DNA from: Pseudomonas hamedanensis
GTDB lineage: Bacteria > Pseudomonadota > Gammaproteobacteria > Pseudomonadales > Pseudomonadaceae
Assembly (NCBI RefSeq): GCF_014268595.2
Contig: NZ_CP077091.1
Coordinates: 3,808,001-3,872,000, forward strand
DNA: 64,000 nt
Direction: 5' to 3'
Numbering within the stretch: position 1 is the stretch's first letter; the number at the start of each line of letters is the position of its first letter. Shown piece after piece: positions 5,501 to 51,637 of the stretch. The position numbers were made by a program, and so were the translations under genes. The notes under the pieces are model-generated. The model had not been told where the DNA came from. It saw only the letters and a program-made list of their open reading frames with translations, and did no database searches.

Positions 5501-5575
5501 CAAAACGTGCCTGCAAAAGAAAAGACGCACCGCTGCGACGCGGTGCGCTTGGGCGATACACACAAGCGCAGGGCA

Positions 5576-6970
5576 TCAGCGCAACGGTACGGACGGCCAG
5601 CGCTCGATCGGTCCGCGCCAGCTCTCGTATGCCTTGGCGCAGCGCAACAGCCACTGATCGGCGAAGCGCGGAGCAATCATCTGCAAACCGATCGGCATGC
5701 CTTGGGTGGTGAAGCCGCAGTTGATCGACAGCGCCGGTTGCTCGCCCATGTTCCACGGCACGGTGAACACGATGTGTTCGAACGGTTGGCGCGGATCGTT
5801 GCCCGGCGAGGGCCACTCGGCAGGAAAACTGCTGACCTGATTGGTCGGAGACAAGACCAGGTCGAGATCGTCAAAGACCCTTGCACAGCGGCGCCGCATT
5901 TCGAAAGTCTGGTTGAAGCCGTCGACCGCCTGCACCGCACTCATCGTTGCGGCGGGGGCCGCCCACGCCTCGATGTACGGCAAGACCTTGCTGCGCTGCT
6001 CCGGGCTCAGGGCCTGCAATTGCGCCAACTGTCGGGCGCGCCAGAAATCATCGAGGCCATCCAGCAAACGGCGATCCATCACCGGCCCGATCAGCACCAC
6101 TTGCGCACCGTGTGCCTCGAACAGCCGCGCCGCCTGACGCACCGCGTCGCACACTTCGCTGTCGGGCTGAAAACCGCAACCAGGGTCCAGCATCAAGCCG
6201 ACTTTCACGCCCAGCAGCGCCGGCACTTGTAACTGCCAGTCCAGCGTTTGCGCGGCGAGGCTGGTTGCGTCGCGGCGGTCCGGGCGCGTCAGGTAGCCCA
6301 TCATCAACGCGCAGTCATCGACGGTGCGGGTCATCGGCCCGGCGCAGCGACCGGTGTAATACGGATCAATCGGAATCCGGCCCAGGGTTGGCTTGAAACC
6401 GACCAGGCCACACCAGCCCGCCGGCAGCCGCACCGAACCGCCGATGTCGGTTCCGACATGCAGCGGCCCGTAACCGGCGGCCGCCGCTGCGGCTGCACCG
6501 GCACTCGAACCTCCGGGGTTACAGGCAGGGTTCCAGGGATTGCGCGTGATGCCATGCAGACTCGACAAGCCCGAGGACAGCATGCCGAAGTCCGGCACTG
6601 TGGTTTTGCCCAGAATGATCGCCCCGCTCTCACGCAGACGCGCAGCCGGCGGCGCGTCTTCGCTCGCCGGCACCGCAGATATGGCAGCGGTTCCTTGGGT
6701 AACGCAGTCGCCCTGAGTGGCAATCAGCTCCTTGAGAGTCACCGGTACGCCGTCGAGGCCGCCGCGCGGCGCGCCCCGGCTCCAGCGTTCGCTCGATGCT
6801 CGCGCCTGCTCGCGTATGCGCTGCGGATCGAACGCACACAGCGCTGCGATGCTCGGCTCCCAGCGTTCGATGTGGGCCAGCAGGTGATCGAAATACTCCA
6901 GCGGCGACAACTGGCGGCGGGCGTACAGGTCGAGCAATTGCGTCGCCGATAAATCGTGTAATGCCATCAT
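5576..6970 (-). CDS. Amidase-signature family hydrolase
   Basis: This is an amidase-signature enzyme that hydrolyses an amide to a carboxylate and an amine or ammonia. The Ser-cisSer-Lys triad is intact: K80 in PVTLKEL, S155 in NPGGSSAG, and nucleophile S179 in GTDIGGSVR. At 464 residues it has typical length, and with no signal peptide it should be cytoplasmic. The start could be 6970 or the adjacent methionine at 6967. It lies between the MHS transporter gene (48 bases) and the oprD-type gene (75 bases) on the same strand, so its substrate is probably the solute these import. It is not GatA, because no gatB or gatC is nearby. Confidence 0.9.
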   Translation of the reverse strand: MMALHDLSATQLLDLYARRQLSPLEYFDHLLAHIERWEPSIAALCAFDPQRIREQARASSERWSRGAPRGGLDGVPVTLKELIATQGDCVTQGTAAISAVPASEDAPPAARLRESGAIILGKTTVPDFGMLSSGLSSLHGITRNPWNPACNPGGSSAGAAAAAAAGYGPLHVGTDIGGSVRLPAGWCGLVGFKPTLGRIPIDPYYTGRCAGPMTRTVDDCALMMGYLTRPDRRDATSLAAQTLDWQLQVPALLGVKVGLMLDPGCGFQPDSEVCDAVRQAARLFEAHGAQVVLIGPVMDRRLLDGLDDFWRARQLAQLQALSPEQRSKVLPYIEAWAAPAATMSAVQAVDGFNQTFEMRRRCARVFDDLDLVLSPTNQVSSFPAEWPSPGNDPRQPFEHIVFTVPWNMGEQPALSINCGFTTQGMPIGLQMIAPRFADQWLLRCAKAYESWRGPIERWPSVPLR

Positions 6971-7018
6971 CTATAGCCATCCGTGCCAGAGCCGTGGTGC
7001 GTAACTGCTTCGCTTGCC

Positions 7019-8332
7019 TTAACGTTCCGGGACCAGCGCCGGCCGCGTCCAGGCCGGCTCGTGCCGACCGAAAAACAGGGCGCAGCCAACCCCCACAGCG
7101 CCCATCACCGCCGCATAAGCCACGCACACCCACGGGCTCCACGGCATCAGGGCGATGAGCAGCAGCGGCGTGGTGCTCGCCCACAGTGCGTAGGCGATGT
7201 TGTAGGTAAACGAAATGCCCGAGACGCGGATGTGCGCGGGAAACAGGCTGACCATCACCGACGGAACCGCGCCGACCACGCCGCAGCTCAACCCGGCCAG
7301 CGCGTAAGCCAGCCCGAGCCAGGCGCCGCCACTGATCAGGCAGCCATAAAGCAGTGCGATGCCGACCGGCAGCAATACGCTGTATAGCTTGACCGTGCGC
7401 CAGGCGCCGATGCGATCGACGATCAGCCCGGCGATCACGCAGCCGATGTTGAGAAAAACGATGCCCAGACTGCTCAGGGCAAAGGTGTGGCCGGGCGTCA
7501 TGCCGAAACTTTTCTGCATGACGGTTGGCGTGATCACCACCAGTACCACCACGGCCGATGTCAGCACGCAGGTCAGGATGAACGCTGGCAGCAAAGTCTT
7601 GCGATGTTCGCGCAGCACGGTACGCAACGGCAGTTCGGCATCCGCCGCACGGCGTGCCTGCAATGCCACGAAAACCGGTGTCTCGTTCAACCAGCGGCGC
7701 AGCCAGACGCCGATAACGCCGAACACCCCGCCCAGTAAAAACGGCAGGCGCCAGGCGTAATCGAGAATCTCCGCCGGGGTAAACACTTGCGCCAGCAGGG
7801 TCGCCGTCAGCGCGCCGAGCAGATAACCGAAGGTCAATCCGGCCTGAAGGAACCCCAGCGCATAACCACGATGCCCGGCTGGGGCATGCTCGGCCACGAA
7901 CACCCAGGCGCTGGGTACTTCGCCGCCCACGGCGGCGCCTTGCAGGACCCGCAACAGCAGCAGCAACAGCGGTGCGAAATAGCCGATCTGGGCGTAGGTC
8001 GGCATGATTCCGATCACCAGGCAAGGCACCGCCATCATCAGGATGCTCAGGCTGAACACGCGTTTGCGGCCCGACTGGTCGGCAAAATGCGCCATCAGGA
8101 TTCCGCCCAGCGGGCGCGCCAGGTAGCCGGTGACAAAAATGCCGAAGCTTTGCAGCAAGCGCAGCCATTCCGGCATGTCTGGCGGAAAGAACAGTTGGCT
8201 GAGGGTCAGGGCAAAAAACACAAAGATGATGAAGTCATAGATTTCCAGGGCACCGCCAAGGGCGGCAAGGCCCAGGGTCTTGTAGTCGGACCGGGAAAAT
8301 CGGTGAGGGGGCGAGACATAAAGAGCAGTCAT
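7019..8332 (-). CDS. MFS transporter, metabolite:H+ symporter (MHS) type
   Basis: This 12-helix inner-membrane symporter has 437 residues from MTALYVSPPHRF. Family marks are the first-helix motif ALGGALEIYDFIIFVFF, the loop 2-3 motif LMAHFADQSGRKRVF, and GAAVGGEVPSAWVFVAEHAP in the fourth to fifth helix region, as in citrate/proline-betaine/shikimate symporters. I took the start at 8332, which is preceded by a weak GAGCTC purine site, rather than the in-frame one 36 bases upstream. It is the first gene of the transporter-amidase-porin run and is divergent from the biosynthetic cluster, sharing a 238-base intergenic region. The substrate is unknown; an organic acid or amide is plausible. Confidence 0.88.
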   Translation of the reverse strand: MTALYVSPPHRFSRSDYKTLGLAALGGALEIYDFIIFVFFALTLSQLFFPPDMPEWLRLLQSFGIFVTGYLARPLGGILMAHFADQSGRKRVFSLSILMMAVPCLVIGIMPTYAQIGYFAPLLLLLLRVLQGAAVGGEVPSAWVFVAEHAPAGHRGYALGFLQAGLTFGYLLGALTATLLAQVFTPAEILDYAWRLPFLLGGVFGVIGVWLRRWLNETPVFVALQARRAADAELPLRTVLREHRKTLLPAFILTCVLTSAVVVLVVITPTVMQKSFGMTPGHTFALSSLGIVFLNIGCVIAGLIVDRIGAWRTVKLYSVLLPVGIALLYGCLISGGAWLGLAYALAGLSCGVVGAVPSVMVSLFPAHIRVSGISFTYNIAYALWASTTPLLLIALMPWSPWVCVAYAAVMGAVGVGCALFFGRHEPAWTRPALVPER

Positions 8333-8507
8333 GGATGAGCTCTGAATAGGCCAGTAAAGGAGCGACACCGGCGCACGAAGCGCCCTTGCGAATCGGCTTG
8401 CTCCTGCGCCACCTGATCAGTTTCAACAGCGCGGTATCGTCTATGCAAACGCAACGCCGGACAACAAAACCCAAGCTCTGTGCTGCTTTTTAGAGGAAAT
8501 CTGTACA

Positions 8508-8535
8508 TTGAGTTTTCGCTTGTTTAAACAATAAT
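8508..8535 (+). promoter_or_regulatory. Candidate promoter of the biosynthetic cluster with an embedded palindrome
   Basis: TTGAGT at 8508-8513 and AATAAT at 8530-8535 are separated by 16 bases and fit a sigma-70 promoter. The palindrome TGTTTAAACA (8521-8530) fills the spacer, where a bound repressor would block polymerase. The predicted transcript starts about 30 bases before the first gene. Confidence 0.55.
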
Positions 8536-8570
8536 CAGGCCCTCCCTAATCCCCGGATATTTGGCCAATC

Positions 8571-9500
8571 ATGGAAGAAATCACCAGTAACTTCGCCGAT
8601 TTTGCGCATCCAGACACAGAGTCCATTGCCATCATCCGAGGCCGCGTCCTACAAGCCTTGCAACACTATCTGCTGGAACGCGACTTCAAACAGCTGATGC
8701 CGATCCTGATGTCGCCGATCACCGATCCGTTGAACCATGCGGTGTATCCGGCAGAGATCCAGTACGAACAACGGCGCCTGAAACTGACGGCGAGCATGAT
8801 CTTTCACAAGCAGTTGGCACTGACTGCCAAGGGCCACGACAAGATCTTCATCGTCGCGCCGAACATTCGCCTGGAGAAGGCCGAAATCAAGGACTCGGAA
8901 AACCACTTGCTGGAATTTTCCCAGTTCGATTTCGAGATCCGCGATGGCGACATGCACCAGGTCATGGCGCTGATCGAAGGCCTGATCAAGCATGTCTTCA
9001 GCGAGGTCAACCAGCATTGCGCTGGCGAGCTGAAGCAACTGGGTCGGCAACTGCCGCACTTTGCCACGGCTTTCCCGATCTACAGTTCCGACGAACTGCG
9101 CGCCGAGCATGGCGACGACTTCGAAAAAATCATGTCGGCGCAAGCGCACACGCCGTTCTTCGTCACCAACTACCGCCGCGAGTTCTACGACCGCGAAACC
9201 CCGGGCAAGCGCGGTACGTACAACAACTATGACCTGATCTATCCCGATGGCTATGGCGAAGCCTTGTCGGGTGCCGAGCGCGAGTTCGAATACGAGCAGA
9301 TCGTCTACCGCATGAACGAGCTGTCGATGGACTTGCAGCCGTTTGCCAATTACCTGGAAGTGGCTCGCCGTGGCTTGCTGCACCCGAGCGCCGGCGGCGG
9401 TCTGGGCATCGAGCGCCTGCTCAAGTTCATTTGCGGCAAGCGGCGCATCCGCGACGTCGCGCTGTTCGACCGCACCGTCGGTACCCGCTTCCTGTTCTGA
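8571..9500 (+). CDS. Stand-alone class II aminoacyl-tRNA-synthetase-like ligase, archaeal asparagine synthetase type
   Basis: The 309 residues consist of a class II catalytic core without an anticodon-binding domain. Motif 2 is visible as NIRLE with R100 and E102, then HLLEFSQFDFEI (112-123). Motif 3 is GGGLGIERLLKF with R282. The segment PILMSPITDPLNH and the order of the motifs resemble the AspRS/AsnRS branch. In particular they recall the archaeal asparagine synthetase derived from it, a protein of about the same size that makes asparagine from aspartate, ATP and ammonia. By inference it adenylates the carboxylate of an aspartate-like substrate and passes it to ammonia or an amine. It is the first gene after the candidate promoter, 65 bases before the monooxygenase gene. 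An EpmA-like role is unlikely, as pseudomonads of this group normally modify EF-P by rhamnosylation. Confidence 0.78.
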   Translation: MEEITSNFADFAHPDTESIAIIRGRVLQALQHYLLERDFKQLMPILMSPITDPLNHAVYPAEIQYEQRRLKLTASMIFHKQLALTAKGHDKIFIVAPNIRLEKAEIKDSENHLLEFSQFDFEIRDGDMHQVMALIEGLIKHVFSEVNQHCAGELKQLGRQLPHFATAFPIYSSDELRAEHGDDFEKIMSAQAHTPFFVTNYRREFYDRETPGKRGTYNNYDLIYPDGYGEALSGAEREFEYEQIVYRMNELSMDLQPFANYLEVARRGLLHPSAGGGLGIERLLKFICGKRRIRDVALFDRTVGTRFLF

Positions 9501-9565
9501 TCCGCATCTGAATCGCAACGCCTGCCCCGCTTCGGCGGTGGCCGGCTGCGCCATGGAGAAACACT

Positions 9566-10636
9566 ATGCCTGCACTGCGCATTCACTGGTGCTCACCGCT
9601 CGATAGCGGTCAGCAAAAGGCTTCGGAAAAATACAACACCGGTGCCCTCGATTTCGCCGGCATCGTCGACTTTGCCCAGGAAGCCGATGAGTTGGGCATC
9701 GACTCGCTGCTGATGGGAATCAGCTACCACATGCCCGATCCGCTGCCGATGATCGGCGCGCTGGTGCGTGAAACCGAGCGGGTCAAATTCATCCTTGCCT
9801 ACCGTCCCGGCCTGCTGCCGCCGACGCTGTTCACCCAGATCGTCAACACCGTTTCCTGGATGTCCGACAAGCGCATTGCGCTGAACCTGGTGGCCGGTAT
9901 CTCGCCGGATGAACAAGCTTATTACGGCGACTTCGTTGCCCACGACGGTCGCTATGAACGTACCGGCGAATTCCTCGACGTCCTGCATCGGTTCTGGAAA
10001 GGCGAATCCCCGTTGACCTACCACGGCGCCCACTACCGCATCGAAAAAGCCCAGTTGGGCCTGCCCTTCAAAGATGCCGAGCGGCCGCGCATTTACCTCA
10101 GCGGCGCCTCGGACATTGCCCAGCAGATCGCCATCGCGCACAGCGATTGCTGGCTGCGTTACGGCGATACTCCCGAGGGGATTGCCGAGGCCAGCCGCAC
10201 CGTGTTGCAGGCCGGTTGCTCGGTGGGCATCCGCATGCACGTACTGGCCCGCGAAACTCGTGAAGAAGCGCTGGCCGCCGTCGAAAGCATGATGGAAAAC
10301 CCCGACGAGCAGCACCGCGAATGGGTCCGCGAATTTGTCGGGCGCTGCGATTCCCAAGCGGTGAAGACCTCGTTCCAACTGGCGGAAAAAGCTCAGCACG
10401 ACTGGCTGTCGCCGATGCTCTGGTCGGGCGCGGTAGCTTATCGCGGCGGCCCGGCACTGTGCGTGGTCGGCAGTTATCAGGAAGTCGCCGAGTACCTGTT
10501 CGAGTACAAAAAGGTTGGCGTCAGCGAGTTCATTTTCTCCGGCTGGCCGACCCGCGACGAAATGCGCCGGTTCTGCAAGTACGTGCTGCCTTACCTGCGC
10601 GAGCTGGAAACGGTGTGGGATCGCGATCATGCCTGA
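9566..10636 (+). CDS. SsuD-like flavin-dependent monooxygenase (luciferase-like family)
   Basis: This 356-residue TIM-barrel enzyme of the bacterial luciferase-like family uses FMNH2 and O2. It aligns by eye along its length with alkanesulfonate monooxygenase SsuD. It has RYERTGEFLDVLHRFWKGE (130-148), the catalytic-site arginine and histidine R223 and H225 in IRMHVLARE, and R293 in AYRGGPAL. It has no cognate flavin reductase in the window and must borrow FMNH2. Inside a run of amino-acid-modifying genes it more likely hydroxylates or oxidatively cleaves the pathway intermediate than desulfonates a nutrient; this is inference. The ribosome site GGAGAAA precedes the start, and the gene overlaps the next one by 8 bases. 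Confidence 0.85.
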   Translation: MPALRIHWCSPLDSGQQKASEKYNTGALDFAGIVDFAQEADELGIDSLLMGISYHMPDPLPMIGALVRETERVKFILAYRPGLLPPTLFTQIVNTVSWMSDKRIALNLVAGISPDEQAYYGDFVAHDGRYERTGEFLDVLHRFWKGESPLTYHGAHYRIEKAQLGLPFKDAERPRIYLSGASDIAQQIAIAHSDCWLRYGDTPEGIAEASRTVLQAGCSVGIRMHVLARETREEALAAVESMMENPDEQHREWVREFVGRCDSQAVKTSFQLAEKAQHDWLSPMLWSGAVAYRGGPALCVVGSYQEVAEYLFEYKKVGVSEFIFSGWPTRDEMRRFCKYVLPYLRELETVWDRDHA

Positions 10637-11873
10637 GGTCAGCGCCGATGCCCGGCGCAGGGCGATTCGCCTGTTCGGTGCCGGACTGTTATGCGCCTTG
10701 CTCGCAGAACAGACCGTGCTGTTTGCCGTTCCGTTGATGATTTTTCAACTGACCGGCAACGTGCGCTATTCCGGCATCGCCTTCGCGCTTGAATGGCTGC
10801 CCGCGCTGATTGCCTACCCGTTTGCCGGGTTACTCGCCGACCGCTTTGGCGGCCGCTTGTTGTTCCGCGCAGCCAACACGGCCCGCGGACTGAGCCTGGG
10901 CGTCACCTTGTGGATTTGCTGGTTTGCGCCGCAATGGACGATCTGGGCCCTGATCGGTAACGGCATCGTGCTGTCGGTGCTGATGGCTCCGGTGCGCATG
11001 GCGGTGGAGAAAAGCGTACCGCTGATCGCTGGCCCCGAGCGCCTCGCCCATTGTCAGTCGCTGGTGCAGAACATGGAGCTGCTGGCGATGGCGCTCGGCC
11101 CGGCACTCGCGGCCGGCTTGGCGATGTACACCGACAAGCGCTGGTTGTTGGGCCTCGCCGCGCTGGCGCTGTTCGCCGCCGCGTTGTGCTGGAGAAACCT
11201 GCCGACGGCGCGAACCCCTGCCAGCGGTCCGGGCAGCGTGCTCAAGGATCTGGCTCTGGGCTGGCGACTGTTGCTCGGCAACCGGCCGGTGCTGACGCTG
11301 GCCGGCCTGAACTTCACCATCAACCTGGCGTTTGCCGCGGTACTGAGCGCCAACGCGTTTGTCATCAGCGGGGTCTTCAGCGCTGCCGACGGCGTGTTCG
11401 GTCTGATGAACGCCGGGGCCGGCGCCCTCGGCCTGCTGAATTTCATTCTGGTGCCGCGCCTGCTAGCCCGGCTGTCGATCTATCGGCTGGGCGCGCTGGG
11501 CTTCGCCTTGTTGTGCCTGGGCCTGATCTGCATGGGCGTGGCCAGCGGCGTGGTGCTGTATGCCCTGAGCTTTCTGCTGGCGATGGCCGGGTGTGCGTGG
11601 TTCAACGTGTTCAATCGCACGCAGCGGATCAAAGCCATCGACAAAGCCCATCTGGGCAAAGTCATGGGGCCGTTTTACCTGGTCAATCTGCTGTCCTATC
11701 CGCTGGGCGGTCTGCTCACCGCCAGCGTCGGCCACGTCTACGGCCCGCAGGTGCTGATTCTGGTGTTGGCGCTGGTGCTGACCGTGCCCGGCACTCTGCT
11801 GTTCATCCTGACCACCCGGCGCTTCCAGTTGGCTCTGGGTGCTCCGTCGCTCGCCATGGAGGCGTCCCAATGA
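10629..11873 (+). CDS. MFS transporter, probable product exporter
   Basis: This major-facilitator protein has 414 residues and about 12 hydrophobic helices. The loop 2-3 motif is ADRFGGRLLFRAANTARG, as in the EntS-like group of drug and siderophore exporters. The start at 10629 overlaps the monooxygenase stop by 8 bases, and its own stop overlaps the next start (ATGA at 11870-11873), so the genes are translationally coupled. The likely role is to export the cluster product and protect the producer. The direction of transport is inferred from family and context. Confidence 0.82.
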   Translation: MPEVSADARRRAIRLFGAGLLCALLAEQTVLFAVPLMIFQLTGNVRYSGIAFALEWLPALIAYPFAGLLADRFGGRLLFRAANTARGLSLGVTLWICWFAPQWTIWALIGNGIVLSVLMAPVRMAVEKSVPLIAGPERLAHCQSLVQNMELLAMALGPALAAGLAMYTDKRWLLGLAALALFAAALCWRNLPTARTPASGPGSVLKDLALGWRLLLGNRPVLTLAGLNFTINLAFAAVLSANAFVISGVFSAADGVFGLMNAGAGALGLLNFILVPRLLARLSIYRLGALGFALLCLGLICMGVASGVVLYALSFLLAMAGCAWFNVFNRTQRIKAIDKAHLGKVMGPFYLVNLLSYPLGGLLTASVGHVYGPQVLILVLALVLTVPGTLLFILTTRRFQLALGAPSLAMEASQ

Positions 11874-12325
11874 AAGTCCTGCCGCACTGCCTGCTCGCTA
11901 CCGTCGAGTCCGACTCGCACATGTGGAACCTGGTGTACTTGCAATTGTGGCTCGGCGAACACGGCTTGCAGGTGAAAAACCTGGGCAGTTGCACGCCGAT
12001 CGACGCCGTACTCGGCGCGCTTGAACAGCGTCGCAGCGACCTGCTGGTGATCAGCAGCGTCAATGGCCATGGGTATTCGCAAGGCCTGGAACTGATTCGT
12101 CAGGTGCGCCAGCGGTATCCCCATCTGCGCTGTGTGATCGGCGGCAAACTGACCACCTCCGAGGCGCAAACCCTGGCGGTGCGCCGGGCGTTGATCGACG
12201 CCGGCTACAACCAGGTGTTCGTCGGCGCCGATGCGATCGAGCAATTCAGCGCGTACCTGAGCACCCTGCCCACGCAACCCGACGCCGAACCTGCACTTGC
12301 CCTCTGTGCGCCGTCCTGGGGCTGA
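11870..12325 (+). CDS. Cobalamin-binding small subunit of a glutamate-mutase-like enzyme
   Basis: The 151 residues form a B12-binding Rossmann domain like GlmS/MutS, the sigma subunit of glutamate mutase. The base-off/His-on motif is present as D15-S-H17, with H17 as the predicted lower cobalt ligand. Later motifs are SSVNGHG (62-68) and GGK (91-93). In the usual DxHxxG motif the last position is Gly; here it is Asn20, which is unusual. Together with the large subunit at 15102 it should carry out a radical carbon-skeleton rearrangement of glutamate to 3-methylaspartate or a close analogue. The two subunit genes are separated by an ATP-grasp and a PP-loop gene. No reactivase (MutL/GlmL) gene is seen. 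Confidence 0.85.
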   Translation: MKVLPHCLLATVESDSHMWNLVYLQLWLGEHGLQVKNLGSCTPIDAVLGALEQRRSDLLVISSVNGHGYSQGLELIRQVRQRYPHLRCVIGGKLTTSEAQTLAVRRALIDAGYNQVFVGADAIEQFSAYLSTLPTQPDAEPALALCAPSWG

Positions 12326-12367
12326 TCCCCGACCGCCGCCGACTTCGCCCATTCAAGGATCACTACG

Positions 12368-13606
12368 ATGCACATCGTTATCGTCAACCGCTGGCCGCGT
12401 TTTCATGATGAGCGCCGCTGGGACAATGAACTGACTCGCTACGAGGCGTTCTTCGATCATCAACAGCACCGCATCAGTTACGTGGTCGATGCGCCCGGCG
12501 CCCAGGGCGTGCTCACCCCGGCGCAGCAGATTGCCCATCAGGTGCAGGTCGAGGACGTCAATCAATACGAGCAATTGCTGGGAGCGGTCCAAGAGGTCAT
12601 CGCGCGTGTCGGGCCGGTCGACCAGTTAATCGCGCTGTCCGAGTTCACCCTGGAAATTGCCGCGCGGGTACGCCAGGCCCTGAATATCCCGGGAGACGGG
12701 CCGGATGAAGTGGCGGTGTACCGCGACAAGGCGCGCATGAAGGAAATCCTCCAGGCTCAGGGTTTGCCGGTGCCGGCGTTTGCCCGCTGCCAATCGGTCG
12801 AGCAGGCCCTGCACTTTGCCAGCGAGATCGGGTTTCCGCTGATCGTCAAACCGGTCGACGGTGCCGCGAGCATGGGCGTGGAGAAAGTCGAGAACGAAGC
12901 TGACCTGCGCCGCCTGCTCGCCACCCTCGACCTCAGCCGTTATGAGATCGAAGCCTTCATGCACGGCCAGACCTACCACATCGACGGCTTTGCCGATGTC
13001 GACGGCAGCGTGCCGTTTCAAGTGGTATCGCGCTACATCAACAGTTGTCTGGATTTCGCCAAGGCCCAGCCTTTGGGCTCGGTCATCGTTCAGGCATCGC
13101 CCCTGCGCAAACGCATCGAAGCGTTCAGCCAACAGATCCTGCGCGCCTTGAACCTGCGCTGTACCGCGTTTCACCTTGAGATTTTCGTCGAGCCGGACGA
13201 GTCGCTGGTGTTCCTCGAAATCGGCGCGCGGGTTGGCGGCAGTGAAGTGCCGCACCTGATCAACAAGGTATTCGGGGTCAATCTTTACGAACACTGGCTG
13301 CGCCGCCTCGCAGGCGATCAGGTGCCCGTGCCCGTCATCGACGACGATCCGAGTGGCGGCTGGCTGGTCATTCCCAAACCCGCACAGCTGCCTTGCCGCG
13401 TGGTGAAGGCGCAATCACTGCGCGAAGCATTGCCCAACCTGTGGCGCGAGCTGTTGCCCCAACCGGGAGAAATCCTCGAGGCCGGCGGCAGTTACGACGC
13501 CCTGCACAGTGGCCGCTTCATTTTTGTCGGCGGCAGCGAAGTCGCGACTGAGCACGATATCCGCCACACCACCCAGACGTACCAATTCCAGGCTGAAGCG
13601 CTATGA
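12368..13606 (+). CDS. ATP-grasp ligase, first copy
   Basis: This 412-residue ATP-grasp enzyme is of the amino-acid ligase type (BacD/DabC-like). The nucleotide-binding lysine and glycine-rich loop lie in GFPLIVKPVDGAASMGVEKV, and the metal-binding end is HLEIFVEP...LEIGARVGGSEVPHLI. It should form an acyl-phosphate on a carboxylate and join it to an amine, giving an amide or dipeptide. The start at 12368 has an AAGGATCAC ribosome site, and the stop overlaps the next start in ATGA. A second, diverged ATP-grasp gene lies at 16342, so two separate bonds may be made. The substrates are not readable from sequence. Confidence 0.85.
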   Translation: MHIVIVNRWPRFHDERRWDNELTRYEAFFDHQQHRISYVVDAPGAQGVLTPAQQIAHQVQVEDVNQYEQLLGAVQEVIARVGPVDQLIALSEFTLEIAARVRQALNIPGDGPDEVAVYRDKARMKEILQAQGLPVPAFARCQSVEQALHFASEIGFPLIVKPVDGAASMGVEKVENEADLRRLLATLDLSRYEIEAFMHGQTYHIDGFADVDGSVPFQVVSRYINSCLDFAKAQPLGSVIVQASPLRKRIEAFSQQILRALNLRCTAFHLEIFVEPDESLVFLEIGARVGGSEVPHLINKVFGVNLYEHWLRRLAGDQVPVPVIDDDPSGGWLVIPKPAQLPCRVVKAQSLREALPNLWRELLPQPGEILEAGGSYDALHSGRFIFVGGSEVATEHDIRHTTQTYQFQAEAL

Positions 13607-15099
13607 ACGCCATTCAATTGCAAGCCAGTCACGACGAACCGTTGCTGGGCGAACTCAATCGTTATCTGAAGGCCGACGAACGTCGCGCCGTCGCCACGAT
13701 CGGCGAGCGCCTGATCGCCGCGGCGGGTGGCCTCGACCGACTGACCGACTACAAACTGATGGTCGCCTACGGCGGTGGCAAGGACAGCTCCTACACCGTG
13801 GCCATGCTGCGCGCCACGCAGTTGCATCTGTCGGTGTTGCACGGTCGCACCTTTCAGCTGCGCATCGCCAACATGCGCCACGCCGGCGTACCGGATGCGG
13901 TGATGGCCAACATTGATCGGGTCTACCGCGCCTTGCACCTGTTCGACGATTCGCGAGTGGAAATGCTAGTGGTCGATCATCAGCAAATCCGCCCATTCGA
14001 ACGCCATCTGCCGTTCCCTGACAATGTGCAGGCGATGAACCGTTTTGACGTGTTGATGAACGGCCACCGTACCGCTGGCGACGGCCGACCGACCTTCTGC
14101 AACAGCTGCAACCTGGCCGTGGCCGATTTTTATGGACGCGCAGCGTGGTGGCAGGGCGGGGTCGACGCGGTCGTCACCGGCGACTCGCGCAAGGAACAGA
14201 AACACTACTTCACCTGGATCATGCGTCTGGCGCAGCGCCTGGGCCTGAACGTCGACGAGTGTCGCCGCCAGGGTTTTCGCGGACTGCTGCAAGCGCTCGA
14301 TGGCGTGGCCCAGAGCTATTTCATCGAGCTGTTCGGCGAAGGCTTCGACCAGCAGCGCGAGGAGCGTCGCGTCGCCTGCGGCGATGAGCATGCCGACCCG
14401 GCGTTCGTCAGTATTTACGATCTGGTCAGCTACAAAGTCGAGGATCACTGGGAACTGATCACCGAGTTTCTCGATTTCCGCTTCGAAGAGCTGGCGTTCA
14501 GTTTCACCGAATCGGACTGCGCCAACCCAATGCTGATGGCGCACTTTCGCGGGCTTAAAGCCGAGTACGTCCAAGGCCGCCGCTACAACCAGGGGATTGC
14601 CGAATATCTCGAACTGGCGCAGGCGCTGATGCGCAAAAAAGAAATGCCCCAGCGCCTGATCGATCTGGCCATGGCCGCCTATGCCGACGAACAGGGCATG
14701 CAAGCCCGTCGCACACTTGCCGCGCGCTTTGCCGAGCAGGCCTTCGGACTGGATGAGGCGCAACTGGTCTGCATGCAGTTTGCCCCGTTCGTCGACCGCG
14801 GCCGCGAGCTGTCGAGCTTTCTAGGACTTTGCCACCCGCAGCAGTTGGGCAACATCGACCTGCTGCACCAGATCCTCGCCGGCGAACACAACGAACCGGG
14901 CCTCAGCCAGTGGCTGAGCCAGGTCAGCGGTCTGCCGTTACCGGCGTTGCGCAGCTTGTATGCGCACCAACGGATCGACTTCGACAGCGATGCCACGCTG
15001 ATCGCCCGGGTCCGTGCCGGCGATCCGCATAAGGGCCGCGTCAGTCGCTACGACCCGGCCACCGGTGAAACCGTGGTCGAACTGGTCTCGGGGCGCTAG
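13603..15099 (+). CDS. PP-loop ATP pyrophosphatase family protein with a CxxC pair
   Basis: The 498 residues have an N-terminal HUP-type domain with the PP-loop YGGGKDSS (56-63), which binds ATP and activates a substrate as an adenylate. A CxxC pair (C166, C169 in TFCNSCN) follows, as in PP-loop enzymes that carry zinc or handle sulfur. The motif VVTGDSRKEQKHYF resembles the second half of the active site in amidotransferase-type members. The C-terminal 200 or more residues are mostly helical and I do not recognise them. Possible roles are amidation, amidine formation or thiolation of the intermediate. It is coupled to the ATP-grasp gene by a 4-base overlap, and the next gene starts two bases after its stop. 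Confidence 0.75.
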   Translation: MNAIQLQASHDEPLLGELNRYLKADERRAVATIGERLIAAAGGLDRLTDYKLMVAYGGGKDSSYTVAMLRATQLHLSVLHGRTFQLRIANMRHAGVPDAVMANIDRVYRALHLFDDSRVEMLVVDHQQIRPFERHLPFPDNVQAMNRFDVLMNGHRTAGDGRPTFCNSCNLAVADFYGRAAWWQGGVDAVVTGDSRKEQKHYFTWIMRLAQRLGLNVDECRRQGFRGLLQALDGVAQSYFIELFGEGFDQQREERRVACGDEHADPAFVSIYDLVSYKVEDHWELITEFLDFRFEELAFSFTESDCANPMLMAHFRGLKAEYVQGRRYNQGIAEYLELAQALMRKKEMPQRLIDLAMAAYADEQGMQARRTLAARFAEQAFGLDEAQLVCMQFAPFVDRGRELSSFLGLCHPQQLGNIDLLHQILAGEHNEPGLSQWLSQVSGLPLPALRSLYAHQRIDFDSDATLIARVRAGDPHKGRVSRYDPATGETVVELVSGR

Positions 15100-15101
15100 G
15101 C

Positions 15102-16361
15102 ATGACCACGTCTTGCGGCGGCTATTTTGAGCAGTTCATCGAGCGTGCCCGTGCCCGCGGCGAACTGGTGGTGCAACCGCGCATGGGCTTTGGCACCCTT
15201 CAGCAGATGCGCGCCGGGCTGGCCAGTGTCGCCGACCTGCCCTGCGCGGCCATCGGCACCATCACCCTGGACAGCTACACCCGCGTCGGCGATTACCAGA
15301 GCGCCTTGCAGTGTCTCAACAGTGCTGCGCCGATGAACGGTTTTCCGATCATCAGCCACCCTATCGAAGCGGTGCGCAGCATGCTCTCCGGGCTGTACGG
15401 TACGCAGTTTCCGATCCAGATCCGCCACGGCACGGCCAAACCGCAAAACGTATTCCAGCGCCTCGCAGCCCTGGGGCTGGACGCCACGGAAGGCGGCCCG
15501 GTGTCGTATTGCATGCCTTACAGCCGCTTGCCGCTGGCCGAGGCGGTCAGCGCCTGGGCCGACAGCTGCCGGTTACTGGCCGACGCGACCGAGCATGCGC
15601 ACATCGAGAGTTTCGGTGGCTGCCTGCTCGGGCAGCTGTGCCCGCCGTCGCTGCTGGTCGCCATGACCTTGCTCGAAGCGCTGTTCTTCCGCCAGCACGG
15701 GATTCGCAGTGTTTCGCTCAGCTACGCCCAGGGCACTTCGCTGGAGCAGGACTTCGGCGCGTTGCAGGCATTACGCGAATTGGCCGCCGACTATCTGGAC
15801 GGTGCCCACTGGCATGTCGTGGTGTATTCCTACATGGGCGTCTTTCCGACCACACAGCACGGCGCCCGCCGTTTGATTGGCGACAGCGCGCGCCTGACTC
15901 AGGCCGCCGGTTGCGAACGGCTGATCGTCAAGACCGTCGCCGAATCGCGGCAGATCCCCAGTGTCGACGACAACCTCGATGCCTTGCGCATGGCGGCCGA
16001 AGCGGCGGCCGGGGAGCTGCCAACGATGGACGCGGGCGGCGCTGGCTACTACGAGCAAACCCTCTTCGAAGCGCGACGACTGGTGGAAACCGTGCTGGAC
16101 CTGCACGCCGACATTGGTCTGGCGCTGATCCAGGCATTCGCTCGCGGCTTGCTCGACATCCCTTATTGCCTGCATCCGGACAACCCCGGACGCGCCACCA
16201 CCCGCATCGACGACCGCGGCGCGCTGCGCTGGGGCAATACCGGCGGCCTGCCGTTGCCGCGTGGCAGCGGCGGGTCGCTGAACGGCCCCGGCGTCAGTTC
16301 CAGCGAACTGTTTCAGATGTTGCATTACACGGTAAATCGTTATGACCAACCCTTGCATTGA
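15102..16361 (+). CDS. Large (epsilon) subunit of a glutamate-mutase-like enzyme
   Basis: This 419-residue TIM-barrel subunit is homologous to GlmE/MutE. The substrate-holding arginine claw of Clostridium cochlearium glutamate mutase (R66, R100, R149) corresponds to R27 (QPRMG), R61 (DSYTR) and R108 (IRHGT). E171, Y177 and Y181 correspond to E130 (TEGG), Y136 and Y140 (SYCMPY). All six are kept, which argues that glutamate or a close analogue is the substrate. It is shorter than the roughly 480-residue clostridial protein at both ends, with the missing N-terminus accounting for about 39 residues. The reaction with the small subunit would be glutamate to 3-methylaspartate. It overlaps the next gene by 20 bases. 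Confidence 0.9.
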   Translation: MTTSCGGYFEQFIERARARGELVVQPRMGFGTLQQMRAGLASVADLPCAAIGTITLDSYTRVGDYQSALQCLNSAAPMNGFPIISHPIEAVRSMLSGLYGTQFPIQIRHGTAKPQNVFQRLAALGLDATEGGPVSYCMPYSRLPLAEAVSAWADSCRLLADATEHAHIESFGGCLLGQLCPPSLLVAMTLLEALFFRQHGIRSVSLSYAQGTSLEQDFGALQALRELAADYLDGAHWHVVVYSYMGVFPTTQHGARRLIGDSARLTQAAGCERLIVKTVAESRQIPSVDDNLDALRMAAEAAAGELPTMDAGGAGYYEQTLFEARRLVETVLDLHADIGLALIQAFARGLLDIPYCLHPDNPGRATTRIDDRGALRWGNTGGLPLPRGSGGSLNGPGVSSSELFQMLHYTVNRYDQPLH

Positions 16362-17595
16362 TTCCAGCCTCGCGCCGTTCATTCTGGTCGACGCATATTC
16401 CACGGGCGCCCTGTTGGCCCGTGCACTGGCCGGCGAGCGGCGCTTGCTGCATGTACGCTCCCGCGCGCAGATGCCGGCGGCGTTTGCCGCAAGTTGCCCG
16501 ACGGAGCTGTTCGTCGCCGATTACAGCGTCGCCGACGAAGGCCTGGAAGCGTTGATTGCCAGGCTCGCCGCGCACCAGCCGGCGGCAGTGTTGACTGGCA
16601 GTGAATTTGGCGTCGAGCTGGCCGATTTGCTCGCCGCCCGCCTCGGCCTGCCCGGCAATGACCCGGCAACATCGGCGGCCCGCCGTGACAAATCGCTGAT
16701 GGCCGAGCAGGTCGCTCAGGCCGGACTGCCGGTGGCGGCGCAGTTGCGCACCCGCTCGATGGCCGAGGCGCTCGCCTGGTTCAAGGCGCGTGGCGGCGCC
16801 AGCGTCGTCGCCAAGCCGCTGGACAGTGCTGGCTCCGACAACGTGTTCATCTGCCACGACGCGCTGGAGCTGCAGGCCGCGGTCGAAACGATTCTCGGGG
16901 CGACCAACCTGATGATGCTCGACAACCAGGCGCTGCTGTTACAGGAATACCTGAGCGGCGATGAGTACGTGATCAACAGCGTCAGTCATGAGGGCGAGCA
17001 CTGGATTACGGACGTATGGAAAAGCTCGAAAACCTTCGCTGCTGATGGTCGCAAGATCTATGACTGCGAGGACCTGCTGCCAGCCGACGCCTCGCAATTG
17101 CCACAGCTGATCGAATACGTGCAGGGCGTACTCGACGCACTGGGCATCGTCCATGGCCCGGCGCACACCGAGTTGATTCTGACCGCCGAAGGCCCGCGTC
17201 TGCTGGAAACCGGCGCGCGGCTTTCCGGGCTGGCCTGCCCGCCTGCCCTGCAAGCGGCGACCGGTAACGATCAGGTCGCGCTGACCTGTCTGAGCTATCT
17301 GGCGCCTGCGCGTCTGGGCCAATGGCCCAAGCGCTATCAGCTGCTGCAACACGCCAGGTGCCTGAACCTGATCGCCCATCGCCCCGGTCTGTTTGCGCAG
17401 GAACAGGCACGCCAGCGCCTGGAAACCCTGGCGAGTTTTCATAACGTCAGATTCCGCCGCGCCGAGGGGGCAGCGATCACGCCCACCATTGACCTGAACA
17501 GTTCGCCCGGTGCGGTGTTTCTGTTGCACCCGCTGTCCGCGCGTATCGAGGCCGATCACGCCGCGTGGCGAGGCTGGGAACGCGACTGGTTGTAA
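16342..17595 (+). CDS. ATP-grasp ligase, second copy
   Basis: This ATP-grasp enzyme of 417 residues is clearly different from the one at 12368. Visible elements are [19 protein letters not shown] (ATP-binding lysine and loop), [17 protein letters not shown], and the metal-binding [22 protein letters not shown]. It resembles ligases of the carnosine-synthase/dipeptide-ligase group, in which an amino acid is activated as acyl phosphate. The product is likely a peptide or amide bond. It starts inside the end of the mutase gene (20-base overlap) and precedes the panB-like gene by 43 bases, which contain a small CCCCG/CGGGG hairpin at about 17606-17620. Confidence 0.84.
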
Positions 17596-17638
17596 CCACA
17601 GACAACCCCGCCAACGGGGCTTGAAAAGGAAAGAGAGC

Positions 17639-18457
17639 ATGAGCCTGCATACCCGAACCAAACGACTGAGCGTGCCGCAATTGGTCGCCATGAAGGGACA
17701 ACAGAAAATCGTCTCCCTGACCGCCTACACCAGCCATATAGCGAAGTTGATGGACCCGATCGTCGATTTCATCCTGGTCGGCGATTCCACCGCCATGGTC
17801 GGTTACGGCCGCACGTCGACCCTGGACCTGAGCCTGGATGAAATCATTGCGCACACCCGCGCGGTGGTCAGCAGTACGCGCCTGGCGTGTGTGATTGCCG
17901 ACATGCCCTTCGGCAGTTATCAGGAGTCGCCGCAACAGGCCTACCGTAACTGTGCGCAGGTGCTGGCACGGACCGGCTGCGACGCGATCAAGCTTGAAGG
18001 CGGCGCCGTGCTGGCCGAAACCGTGGAGTTTCTGGTCAAGCGCGGCATCCCGGTGATGGCGCATATCGGCCTGATGCCGCAATACGTTCACACCATGGGC
18101 GGTTTCAAGGCACAGGGCATGAACGAAACGGCGGCGCAGGCGATTGAAGCCGATGCGCGCGCGCACCTTGCCGCCGGCGCTTTCAGCCTGCTGCTCGAAG
18201 GCGTTGCCGAAGGTGTCGCGCGGCGGGTGACCGAGCTGTCGCCAATGCCGACCATTGGCATTGGCGCCTCGCCGTCATGCGACGGCCAGGTGCTGGTGAC
18301 CGAGGACATGCTGGGCCTGGGCGGGGACCACGTGCCACGTTTCGTCAAACAGTACGCCGATGTCGGCGCGCTGATCACTCAGGCCTGCGACGCCTTTGCC
18401 ACGCAAGTGCGCGAGGGCACGTTCCCCGAGGCCCGGCACTGCTATGGCGTCGACTGA
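17639..18457 (+). CDS. PanB-like ketopantoate hydroxymethyltransferase paralogue
   Basis: The 272 residues match PanB of the PEP mutase/isocitrate lyase superfamily, which adds a hydroxymethyl group from 5,10-methylene-tetrahydrofolate to 2-oxoisovalerate. The E. coli metal ligands D45, D84 and E114 correspond to D49 (LVGDS), D88 (IADMPF) and E120 (IKLEGG). K112 corresponds to K118, and the base E181 to E187 (LLLEGV). The enzyme is therefore probably active. No panC is beside it, so a housekeeping pantothenate role is less likely than hydroxymethylation of a pathway 2-oxo acid; this is inference. The start at 17639 has the ribosome site AAGGAAAGAGAG. The gene ends the cluster and overlaps the convergent regulator gene by 16 bases. 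Confidence 0.85.
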
Positions 18458-19863
18458 GCGGCGGACACGGCGCTCTCATCGTGAATCGCCTGAGTCAGCA
18501 TCTTCAATGCGTGGGCAATGTCCTTGCTCCAGTCGAGGGTGTAGCTCAAGCGCAGGTGATGCTGCCATGCGCCCTGCTGACTGAATATCTCGCCGGGCGC
18601 AATCACGATGCGTTTGGCCAGCAGACGCTCGAACACCCGGCGCATGTTCACTGGCCGCGTCGCTTCGACCCAGAATGCGGCGCCGCCCAGCGGGGCGACG
18701 ATGCGCAACTGACCGTCGGTGTGTTCGTGCAGCATTTCCTGCATGCGCTGCATGCGACCGACCAACAGACTGCGCAACATTTGTGTGTGCTGATCGATCC
18801 GGCGCGTGGTGTACAAGCGCGCGATCGCCTTTTGCCGGATCGGCGACAAGCGAAACGCCCGCTCAAGAAACAGCCGATGCAGTTCGGGGCCCTGAAACCG
18901 GCTCAGCACATAGCCGTAGGGGGCTTCCGAACCGATGATCTTGTCGAAGGTGGAAAACACCACCAGACGCTCGGGGTCGGCAAAATCACGGTAGCGCGTC
19001 GCGCCTGGCGCGAAACAGAACTCGCCGTAGCTGTCGTTTTCAAACAGCCAGATGCGCCGTTCCGCCAGCCAGCGGCAGATCAGTTTCTTGTCCTCGCCCG
19101 GCATCAGGCTGCCATGGGGAATATTCACCGTCGACGACAGCACCGCCACGCTGATCGGCTCGCGCTGCAACAACAGCTGCAGTTGCGGCAAGTCAAAGCG
19201 CCCATCATCGCCCAACGGCAGTTCAATGACGCGAATCCGCGCGGCCTGCAACTGGCGCAGAATCGCCCAGGAACACGGCGACTCCACCAGCGCCACGGTG
19301 CCGGTCAGTTGCAGCGCTTCGAGGGATAACTCCAGCACGCTGCGCAGGTCCGAGCCGATGTACACGTGCTCGGCGCGCCAGTAGCAGCGCGTCGAGCGGG
19401 TGTAGCGATCCGCCAGAACGCTGCGCAACTCGGTCTCGCCAAAGGGCTGATACAGCGGCGCGTGGGAACGCGGGTACTGGCGCGTCAATTCGCGCTCGGT
19501 CATCAGCAGCGGGTTTTCCAACGACAGCAGCATCGCCGGTGCATCGCTGCTCAGCGCCAGCATGCCGGGCTGCCGGGCACTGGCGAAAACGCTGTCGAGC
19601 AGGTTCGGCGAGCCCTCGCTGACCAGCGCCGAAGGCATGGCCCGGGTGTAGTAACCGAGCTTGGGGCGCGCATAGATCCGCCCCTGATCCTCGAGCAGGG
19701 AGTAGGCATATTTGGTCGTGGAGACTGACACGTTCAAACGCTGCGCCAATTGCCGCAGCGACGGCAGTTTCTGCTCGCCTTCGGGATGGGCGGCTTCGAT
19801 CAGTTCGACGAGATAGCGATAAACAGCCTGGTAGGCGAATGTCGAATCTTTACTTGGGTTCAT
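18442..19863 (-). CDS. MocR-type transcriptional regulator (GntR winged helix plus aminotransferase-like domain)
   Basis: The 473 residues start at [18 protein letters not shown]. An N-terminal GntR winged helix is visible ([34 protein letters not shown], about 33-66). A fold-type I aminotransferase-like domain follows, with the PLP-lysine region [15 protein letters not shown] retained. MocR proteins sense PLP or amino-acid derivatives. The gene faces the cluster and its end overlaps the panB-like gene, so it is the best candidate regulator of the cluster. Longer upstream starts are possible, but the winged helix begins right after the chosen one. A 6-bp inverted repeat (CGAGGT/ACCTCG, 19911-19926) lies about 50 bases upstream and could be an autoregulatory site. 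Confidence 0.88.
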
Positions 19864-20304
19864 GCTCAATCGCTTCAAATCCTGGTGCGTTAGGTACTGC
19901 GCTCGCCCGTCGAGGTCAAAACCTCGAGGCCAGCGCTTGCACTCGGCCATCCATGCCAACGCTCGGGCATCGTACCGATACCGTCGGGCAAAAGCGTCAT
20001 CAGCAATGGGCGTTTTCAGTCGTCACGCCACGTGCCGGGAGTGATCGGCACGGCGTTCTCCATGAACATGCGTCGCTAGCCTGGCACCCGATATCTTCAG
20101 CAGTCCGGGTGACAAATTCCAGCGTTCAGGGTTGAACCGTTGCAAAGGGTAGCGCACATCGCCATCGGCGCGATGCGATGGCGACCGTGGCCGCACCCGG
20201 GAAGGCGCCAGGCGCGTGTCGACGCAGCTGGCGAGTGCTCGCGGTCATCGAGCAATGCAATCTCACCGCGTGGGCCACAGGCCGCACGCGGTGTGGTCAG
20301 CCGA
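19864..20304. other. Intergenic region between the MocR-type gene and the YbhB-like gene
   Basis: These 441 bases should hold the promoter of the regulator gene. Two structures are visible: the inverted repeat at 19911-19926 and a strong hairpin at 20264-20293 just past the ybhB-like stop. In the hairpin, CACCGCGTG pairs with CACGCGGTG and an inner GGCC/GGCC can extend the stem. There is no U-tract, so it may protect the 3' end rather than terminate. I see no convincing gene. Confidence 0.5.
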
Positions 20305-20865
20305 TCAGCGGTGATAACGCCGCACCGCGCTGCTGTTGCGCAGCACATGGCCTTTGATTTTTTCCATCAGCTCGGCGCGGGTCAACCCGGCCGGCAAGGC
20401 GTCGGGGGCCAGATCCAGCGCGTAGATCTGAATGATGTAATGGTGCGCGCTGTCGCCCACCGGCGGGCACGGTCCCATGTAATGGGTGTTGCCCTTGCTG
20501 TTGGTGCCGCCGACACCTTCGAGGCTCGATTTTGCACCGACACCGGCCGCAATCTGGCGCGTGCCGGCTTTGATGCCGTAGTGAATCCAGTGATCGACGC
20601 CCAGGCCTTTCTGGCCGTCCGGGTCGTGCATGACGATCGCGTAGCTCTGGGTGCCGGCAGGGCCTGCGTTCCAACTCAGCGCCGGCGACTGGTTCTTGCC
20701 GCCGCAACCGGGCGCATCGCTGGCCGCCGCCGAGGTGAACAGGCGGTTATCGGACACGCCCGGGATGCTGAGGGTGAAACGCTCCTGGGCCTGCGCCGGG
20801 AACTGCACGCAAAGGGCGACGGCAACGGCCGCCAGCCAAGGGTTGAGAGAGGTCAATCGGGTCAT
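20305..20865 (-). CDS. YbhB/YbcL-family (phosphatidylethanolamine-binding-like) exported protein
   Basis: The 186 residues begin with a Sec signal peptide (MTRLTSLNPWLAAVAVALCVQFPAQA) cut before QERFTL. A PEBP-like fold of the YbhB/YbcL type follows. Family marks are SPALSWNAGPAGTQSYAIVMHDPDG with the DPD motif, HWIHYGI, and the GPCPPVGDSAHHY loop of the anion-binding pocket. The protein is periplasmic. The molecular role of the bacterial family is poorly defined. The start at 20865 was preferred over an upstream GTG because it begins the signal peptide cleanly. Confidence 0.88.
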   Translation of the reverse strand: MTRLTSLNPWLAAVAVALCVQFPAQAQERFTLSIPGVSDNRLFTSAAASDAPGCGGKNQSPALSWNAGPAGTQSYAIVMHDPDGQKGLGVDHWIHYGIKAGTRQIAAGVGAKSSLEGVGGTNSKGNTHYMGPCPPVGDSAHHYIIQIYALDLAPDALPAGLTRAELMEKIKGHVLRNSSAVRRYHR

Positions 20866-21007
20866 TTCCGGGAGCACCTTTGTGCAGTGGGGCCGTCGTC
20901 GGCCTGCAAACTATAGCGGTACCGTTCGTGCCGTGGCAGTGGCAAATGGCTGAACCTCGCGCAGCCACGCAAACTCACAAGAGAAATTGCCCGCGAGGAA
21001 GCCAACG

Positions 21008-51277: not shown

Positions 51278-51637
51278 GGTTGGAATTTCCCGGAACTTCT
51301 TGTCTTGAATCACAGCAGAACGTGGCGCTGCGTCGGATGATGGCAACCCGGAATGACCGTATGTCGGAAAGTTCAAAACAGGAACTGGATCACACGCTGA
51401 AGGACAGGTCGCCGCGGAAATATCAATGTGACATTACTGGGACGATTGTTTAGGATGGCTCCCAGAAGGTCAATAGTTTGGCATAAAGTAAATCGCGAAA
51501 AACTATAGCCAAAATATTGACGAAACAAAGCGTCAACTTGTTATCGAATTTTTTAAAAGTACGTCCAGACTGAAGTGGCGCGATGGCCCGTCAGGTCCAT
51601 GGAAGTCAACTGAATGTGGCACCCCGGAGAGTCTTCA
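51278..51637. other. Divergent lapE/lapA control region
   Basis: This AT-rich 360 bases between two divergent biofilm units contains the candidate lapA promoter and FleQ-like half-sites described separately. The part near lapE (51278-51420) should hold the lapEBC promoter; I could not place it. I see no gene. Confidence 0.6.
51469..51544 (+). promoter_or_regulatory. Candidate lapA promoter with FleQ-like half-sites
   Basis: TTGACG (51517-51522) and TGTTAT (51539-51544) are 16 bases apart and resemble a sigma-70 promoter about 95 bases before the lapA start. GTCAAT (51469-51474) and ATTGAC (51516-51521) match half-sites of the FleQ consensus. An inverted repeat TTGACG-N8-CGTCAA (51517-51536) spans the spacer. 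FleQ is known to control lapA in pseudomonads; binding here is inference. Confidence 0.45.

Follow-up and report, generated by a model that had tools for sequence, protein, structure and literature searches.

A Pseudomonas hamedanensis operon of glutamate mutase, asparagine synthetase-like and PP-loop enzymes, with a core found in two phyla and on a plasmid

Gene Content and Layout of the Operon

The analysed stretch of DNA (hereafter, the window) comprises 64,000 nucleotides of the Pseudomonas hamedanensis genome, which is 6.05 Mb in length and consists of a single contig. Nine plus-strand open reading frames (ORFs), all of them open, are located at 8571–18457 of the window and form one biosynthetic operon. 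Its core consists of four genes, encoding the S and E subunits of a glutamate mutase (MutS and MutE), an asparagine synthetase resembling asparaginyl-tRNA synthetases (AsnRS-like), and a PP-loop enzyme. Together, these enzymes would convert glutamate into 3-methylasparagine and activate its amide within one small-molecule pathway; we estimate the probability of this reading at about 0.55.

The nine genes and their span, given in a preliminary description of the window, were confirmed by a check of the ORFs. The eight junctions are, in order, a gap of 65 bases, overlaps of 8 and 4 bases, a gap of 42 bases, an overlap of 4 bases, a gap of 2 bases, an overlap of 20 bases, and a gap of 43 bases. 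Six of them are thus overlaps or gaps of at most 42 bases, in agreement with the close packing described previously, and the remaining two gaps measure 43 and 65 bases. That the genes constitute a single, co-inherited biosynthetic operon is borne out by their joint occurrence (see below). The candidate promoter proposed at 8508–8535 did not withstand comparison with shuffled sequences: one site was found against a mean of 1.9 in 50 shuffles, which is not above chance. Family searches in Pfam and NCBIfam upheld the earlier naming of the operon genes; in the case of the PP-loop protein, the naming is based only on the motif and the predicted fold.

Joint Occurrence in Pseudomonas

A survey of 398 Pseudomonas genomes (threshold E ≤ 0.001 for MutE) revealed MutE matches in 24 genomes: eleven are close (66–100% identity, one of them, in G229, being divided over two contigs), eleven show 43–46% identity, and two are weak. 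AsnRS-like matches were present in 304 genomes, eleven of these being close matches over the full length (72–100%); the best remaining match among those listed has 28% identity over approximately 150 residues (27.1 bits). The weaker matches belong to ORFs that mostly have about 600 codons, a size in keeping with tRNA synthetases. PP-loop matches were found in 313 genomes, eleven of them at 70–100% identity and the next at 55%. The close copies of all three genes belong to an identical set of 11 genomes. Separate occurrence of the genes in most relatives, which the preliminary description had named as evidence against its interpretation, was therefore not observed for these close copies. Two qualifications should be made: distant PP-loop relatives exist in 302 further genomes, and a second mutase pair (43–46% identity) stands alone in 11 of the 398.

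Twenty regions around the MutE matches were compared, namely nine with close copies (those outside G000, the host genome, and G114) and the eleven with copies of 43–46% identity. In six of the nine close regions, the gene set is complete and its order unchanged; two (L025 and L026) have no MFS (major facilitator superfamily) transporter gene, and one (L024) is cut by a contig end. The eleven other regions (L013–L023) contain only the mutase S and E pair; in one of them (L014), a fatty-acid-desaturase-like gene is located directly upstream of it. In G215 and Pseudomonas sp. TH15 (L028/L044), the PP-loop gene is present in two overlapping pieces, as would result from a frameshift or a sequencing error. 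The host genome encodes a second PP-loop protein (G000:C1:902132-903451; L131, L132), which is 34% identical to that of the operon, has the motif NQSGSRDS in place of GGKDS, and adjoins a gene for a MocR-type regulator (49% identity). Apparently, the pair of PP-loop and MocR genes is distributed throughout the genus, and its copy in this genome has decayed.

Distribution across Phyla

A profile built from 16 PP-loop proteins retrieved 165 relatives in species genomes; of these, the 80 that scored best were examined by tblastn. At 34 of these 80 loci, the mutase S, mutase E, AsnRS-like, and PP-loop genes occur together; these four genes are the core of the system. The other 46 loci carry a PP-loop gene of the syringae type without a mutase, and in 39 of them the stretch examined includes a MocR gene. 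The 34 clusters are equally divided between proteobacteria and actinobacteria. The 17 proteobacterial ones include 11 from Pseudomonas, three from Burkholderiales (L043, L045, and L046), and three short clusters, from Pseudogulbenkiania (L047, cut by a contig end), Methylobacter (L065), and Salinisphaera (L109). The 17 actinobacterial ones (L048–L063 and L082) originate from Streptomyces, Streptacidiphilus, Cellulomonas, Nocardia, and Micromonospora.

Each of the four core genes was counted in all 34 clusters, the monooxygenase and ligase 1 genes in 31 each, and the MFS transporter and ligase 2 genes in 30 each (the L033 contig ends ahead of the ligase 2 gene). The genes for the oxidation, ligation, and MFS export that had been proposed previously form a dispensable extension, which is missing from the three short clusters. 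Two of these three have an EamA transporter gene. The order of the seven genes from the monooxygenase to ligase 2 is kept in actinobacteria. The actinobacterial clusters also contain a distant AsnRS-like gene (34–37% identity, mostly 35–37%), which is added to the close one or replaces it; beside it, a GltB/FMN-dehydrogenase-like gene is found in all 17, and a flavin reductase gene occurs in seven of the 17, one match being weak.

The distance matrices of eight genes, calculated for 27–28 loci (L033, L036, L044, L047, L065, and L109 being left out), show pairwise correlations of 0.69–0.93. These values agree with joint inheritance, although part of the correlation would be accounted for by shared host ancestry. 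A short cluster was also found on a 349-kb plasmid of Methylobacter sp. YRD-M1 (L135, L136), near genes of F-type conjugation and transfer; this plasmid gave the sole PP-loop match among 72,556 plasmid records. A transposase gene and a group II intron are located between this short cluster and a cluster-type panB gene.

Glutamate Mutase and the AsnRS-Like Enzyme

The MutE subunit (15102–16361, plus strand), the only one in the host genome, matches PF06368 (Met_asp_mut_E) with 287.7 bits (cut-off 26.6), and its residues 11–385 align to solved glutamate mutase (6h9e/1cb7). R66, R100, R149, E171, Y177, Y181, K326, and E330 are identical to those of glutamate mutase, and K322 is replaced by arginine; we take these nine positions to be active-site residues of the enzyme. 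The B12-binding MutS subunit (11870–12325, plus strand; PF02310, 51.7 bits) retains the B12 histidine motif in the form DSHMWN. Both subunits remain below the equivalog cut-offs (TIGR01503, 166 of 390.1 bits; PRK02261, 45.7 of 110 bits), which points to a divergent subgroup of glutamate mutases.

The AsnRS-like protein (8571–9500, plus strand; 309 aa) passes the cut-off of the NF005054 family (324.3 bits, cut-off 309) and is an archaeal-type asparagine synthetase A. It covers nearly all of the archaeal asparagine synthetase 3p8t (E 5.7e-63) with long identical runs, and contains the class II motifs 2 and 3 (RLE...HLLEF and GGGLGIER) without an anticodon-binding domain. As the active-site and motif residues are kept in these alignments to solved enzymes, both identities proposed earlier hold. 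The natural reading of the two families is that glutamate would be converted to 3-methylaspartate and then to 3-methylasparagine, and this is fairly safe for a pathway deduced from sequence.

The PP-Loop Enzyme

The PP-loop protein (13603–15099, plus strand; 498 aa) was correctly named in the preliminary description, which laid no stress on it; however, it belongs to the core and is the least explained member of the operon. No match was found in Pfam (E 10) or NCBIfam (E 0.001). The protein represents a family without a model in either database; of the 8000 candidates scored, 588 database members belong to it at E ≤ 0.001. In addition to the GGKDS motif (120 of 121 aligned rows, the remaining row being gapped at this place), it contains three cysteines, Cys166, Cys169, and Cys306, which are conserved in all 121 rows. 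A search of solved structures with the family profile returned four chains at E ≤ 10 (the best at 0.16), which were judged to be non-relatives. The predicted fold has matches, among the 50 listed, to PP-loop enzymes that activate amides or carbonyls, with scores too close to separate a thiolase from an amidotransferase or a nitrile-forming enzyme. TtcA and QueC do not figure in these 50, to which no significance is attached.

The placement of the three cysteines, matched by eye, resembles that of the [4Fe-4S] tRNA thiolases TtcA, TtuA, and NcsA. Unlike them, the protein has no ATP_bind_3 (PF01171) match at E 10, and its gene sits among amino-acid genes, not tRNA genes; the hhalign alignment with TtcA covers the PP-loop only and leaves the cysteines unaligned. 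It differs from the N-acetyl sugar amidotransferases (WbuX/WbpG) in its gene surroundings and in having no TIGR03573 match, and no such match was found in the host genome either. At the sequence level, it does not match the nitrile synthetases ArtA/NitB or QueC/ToyM; ArtA is argininosuccinate-synthetase-like according to a title cited in PMC13060819, which deals with nitrile synthetases.

The Monooxygenase, Ligases, and Exporter of the Long Form

The clusters that carry the extension (the long form) encode a luciferase-like, SsuD-like FMNH2-dependent monooxygenase, represented in the window by the plus-strand gene at 9566–10636 (PF00296, 152 bits). It is far below the SsuD cut-offs (TIGR03565, 200.2 of 518.2 bits; PRK00719, 203.2 of 510 bits), and its nearest relatives of known structure have sulfonates and sulfones as substrates. 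The two ATP-grasp ligases and the exporter-type MFS protein of the preliminary description are corroborated by their predicted families. ATP-grasp ligase 1 (12368–13606, plus strand) matches PF13535 with 49.3 bits and the L-amino acid ligase 4wd3 with E 1.1e-19. Ligase 2 (16342–17595, plus strand), of the L-amino-acid-ligase type, passes the PRK07206 cut-off (361.7 bits, cut-off 302) and is related to the L-amino acid ligase 30vh (E 1.3e-69). The MFS transporter, a putative exporter (10629–11873, plus strand), matches PF07690 with 72.8 bits and shows a weak similarity to EntS (34.9 bits, cut-off 324).

PanB and PanE

The last gene of the operon (17639–18457, plus strand) encodes a PanB paralogue that passes the equivalog cut-off of TIGR00222 (281.4 bits, cut-off 207.55). 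It is 39–40% identical to the other PanB of the host genome, whose gene is located, by eye, directly upstream of an apparent pantothenate synthetase gene. It shows 53–92% identity to the PanB proteins of seven other clusters and 56% to the PanB encoded approximately 5 kb from the Methylobacter plasmid cluster. These relations are drawn from identities only, as the PanB tree has long branches and weak support. PanB was found at 12 of the 17 proteobacterial loci; three (L033, L047, and L065) end too early to show it, and the examined flanks of L043 and L045 contain none. The proteobacterial clusters that have a cluster-type PanB represent four genera.

In actinobacteria, a PanE-type gene is present at 15 of the 17 loci. 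Fourteen of the proteins resemble one another, and that of Micromonospora is only distantly related to them (32–37% identity), which suggests separate recruitment. PanE is used here as a broad label: four tested proteins exceed the subfamily cut-off of TIGR00745, and one exceeds an equivalog cut-off. The Burkholderiales cluster L046 has a weak PanE-like match (27–31%) beside its PanB. Neither PanB nor PanE was detected at four clusters with visible flanks (L043, L045, L060, and L062).

Since actinobacteria carry PanE instead of PanB and four clusters show neither, PanB is not simply a tailoring enzyme. The association of the same core with two enzymes of one short pathway suggests that ketopantoate matters to the system. 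Self-protection of the producer at the ketopantoate step would explain why either enzyme may serve and why some clusters have neither; we propose this role tentatively, as a doubtful possibility.

Proposed Pathway and Alternative Explanations

We propose that this mobile operon directs the synthesis of an unusual amino acid and that its long form directs that of a small peptide built on it, without a nonribosomal peptide synthetase (NRPS) or a polyketide synthase (PKS). MutS and MutE would rearrange glutamate to 3-methylaspartate with the aid of B12, and the AsnRS-like enzyme would adenylate the side-chain carboxylate and add ammonia, giving 3-methylasparagine. The PP-loop enzyme would then activate the amide with ATP and replace its oxygen, with a thioamide as the favoured outcome and an amidine or a nitrile as alternatives. 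In the long form, the FMNH2 monooxygenase would oxidise the product, the two ATP-grasp ligases would add amino acids, and the MFS protein would export the resulting compound. PanB in proteobacteria, or PanE in most actinobacteria, would shield the producer at ketopantoate, in which case pantothenate and coenzyme A (CoA) synthesis would be the target, and the MocR protein would act as the regulator. This scheme shares its outline with that of the preliminary description, from glutamate through 3-methylaspartate and amidation to oxidation, ligation, and export. The first two steps are fairly safe, as judged by the enzyme families; the steps from the third onwards are weak.

The three cysteines make a sulfur-type reaction at the PP-loop step the favoured one, and a thioamide is accordingly put forward as a possible product, with less than even confidence. 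A serious competitor, although itself short of an even chance, is that the enzyme forms an amidine by adding ammonia, as the N-acetyl sugar amidotransferases do, or a nitrile by elimination, as ArtA does, the cysteines binding zinc or a structural cluster. Against this, TtcA, TtuA, and NcsA have the three-cysteine arrangement by eye, and the amidotransferase L118 does not show it at that place by the same inspection. A possible but doubtful explanation of PanB and PanE is a biosynthetic one, in which they would act on a 2-oxo acid of the 3-methylaspartate family, by hydroxymethylation in proteobacteria and by reduction in actinobacteria, so that the products differ between the groups. Both enzymes act on branched 2-oxo acids, PanB passes its equivalog cut-off, and the residues presumed to be catalytic in it look intact by eye; however, four clusters with visible flanks show neither enzyme, and no dedicated aminotransferase gene was recognised within the operon.

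Two further alternatives concern the purpose of the pathway. The operon might serve to take up and degrade a methylated amino acid or peptide, without any exported product, with a metabolite/H+ symporter of the MHS type and an amidase encoded next to it as the point of entry. MHS symporters are normally importers, and the amidase gene adjoins that of the symporter. This explanation is nevertheless very unlikely, given that several enzymes belong to ATP-driven, bond-forming families, 30 of the 34 clusters encode an exporter-type MFS protein and two of the three short clusters encode an EamA transporter, the amidase is confined to Pseudomonas, and the occurrence is patchy (11 of 398 genomes), with a plasmid copy near transfer genes. 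The product might also be a signal or a metal-binding compound and not an antimetabolite. The weak likeness of the MFS protein to EntS is in favour of this, and MocR regulation would suit either use. Nevertheless, it is unlikely, as the Pfam and NCBIfam searches with the nine genes yielded neither an uptake receptor nor a gene of the siderophore type, and PanB and PanE would have no obvious role.

The most specific form of the proposed pathway is speculative and rather improbable as a whole. The core would make 3-methyl-thioasparagine (or the corresponding nitrile or amidine) by a [4Fe-4S] thiolase-type chemistry extended from tRNA to a free amino acid. This product or its 2-oxo acid would mimic the branched 2-oxo acids that occur in pantothenate synthesis, the additional PanB of proteobacteria and PanE of actinobacteria would be separate answers to self-poisoning, and the long form would wrap the warhead in a peptide for delivery.

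Neighbouring Genes and Other Features of the Window

The true unit is larger than the nine genes, since a MocR regulator, an MHS transporter, and an amidase flank it. The MocR-type regulator (18442–19959, minus strand, start codon uncertain) combines GntR and aminotransferase domains (PF00392 and PF00155). Its gene is present at all nine close Pseudomonas loci and, at 29–50% identity, in L046, L065, and L109. The MHS-type symporter (7019–8368, minus strand, divergent from the operon) matches TIGR00883 with 272 bits, under the cut-off of 443. It is found at all eight visible Pseudomonas loci and in Burkholderia territorii L046 (66% identity). MHS relatives are present in 358 of the 398 genus genomes (E ≤ 1e-120); three copies were counted in 10 of the 11 cluster genomes and one or two in most others, at most four candidates being scored per genome and four other genomes having three or more. 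The amidase of the PRK07042 type (5576–6970, minus strand; 774.7 bits, cut-off 458) is the least secure member of the unit: it was seen at seven of the eight visible Pseudomonas loci and at 10 of the 34 cluster loci, all of them in Pseudomonas.

No known RNA, including riboswitches, was matched in Rfam over 5000–21000 (E 0.1). Defence genes were considered as well, and PADLOC matched none of five proteins. At 51614–64000, a plus-strand ORF continues past the end of the window; it has at least 4129 codons and falls together with a marked shift in GC and AT skew. Perhaps it encodes a giant surface protein.

Comparison with Known Systems and Significance

Dapdiamide and bacilysin are peptide antimetabolites whose pathways are independent of NRPSs and built on ATP-grasp enzymes. 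The operon resembles them in its ATP-grasp amino-acid ligases, its MFS exporter, and the formation of an unusual amino acid in the same operon. DdaF, the dapdiamide A synthase, is among the relatives of ligase 2, which remains far under the DdaF cut-off (NF041595, 190.9 of 840 bits). The difference lies in the glutamate mutase, asparagine synthetase, and PP-loop enzyme, with PanB or PanE alongside. The actinobacterial pathways of polyene macrolactams, e.g., sceliphrolactam, are reported to obtain 3-methylaspartate by a glutamate mutase encoded in the biosynthetic cluster, as here; however, those pathways are of the polyketide type, and the operon has no PKS. Systems combining class-I tRNA-synthetase-like enzymes with ATP-grasps, described in PMC2922099, have a different gene set. 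Searches among open-licence papers, judged by titles and the openings of abstracts, gave no account of this gene set, in line with the earlier statement that the combination matches no characterised pathway; it may have been described in a paper under subscription.

This core is shared by two phyla and a plasmid, and its key enzyme comes from a family that has no Pfam or NCBIfam model. Since NRPS and PKS genes are absent, rule-based cluster finders may overlook such clusters. If PanB and PanE serve to protect the producer, the product would lead to an inhibitor of pantothenate and CoA synthesis, and the step to be tested is named thereby. If they are tailoring enzymes, the recruitment of enzymes from a vitamin pathway to the synthesis of a small molecule would still be unusual.

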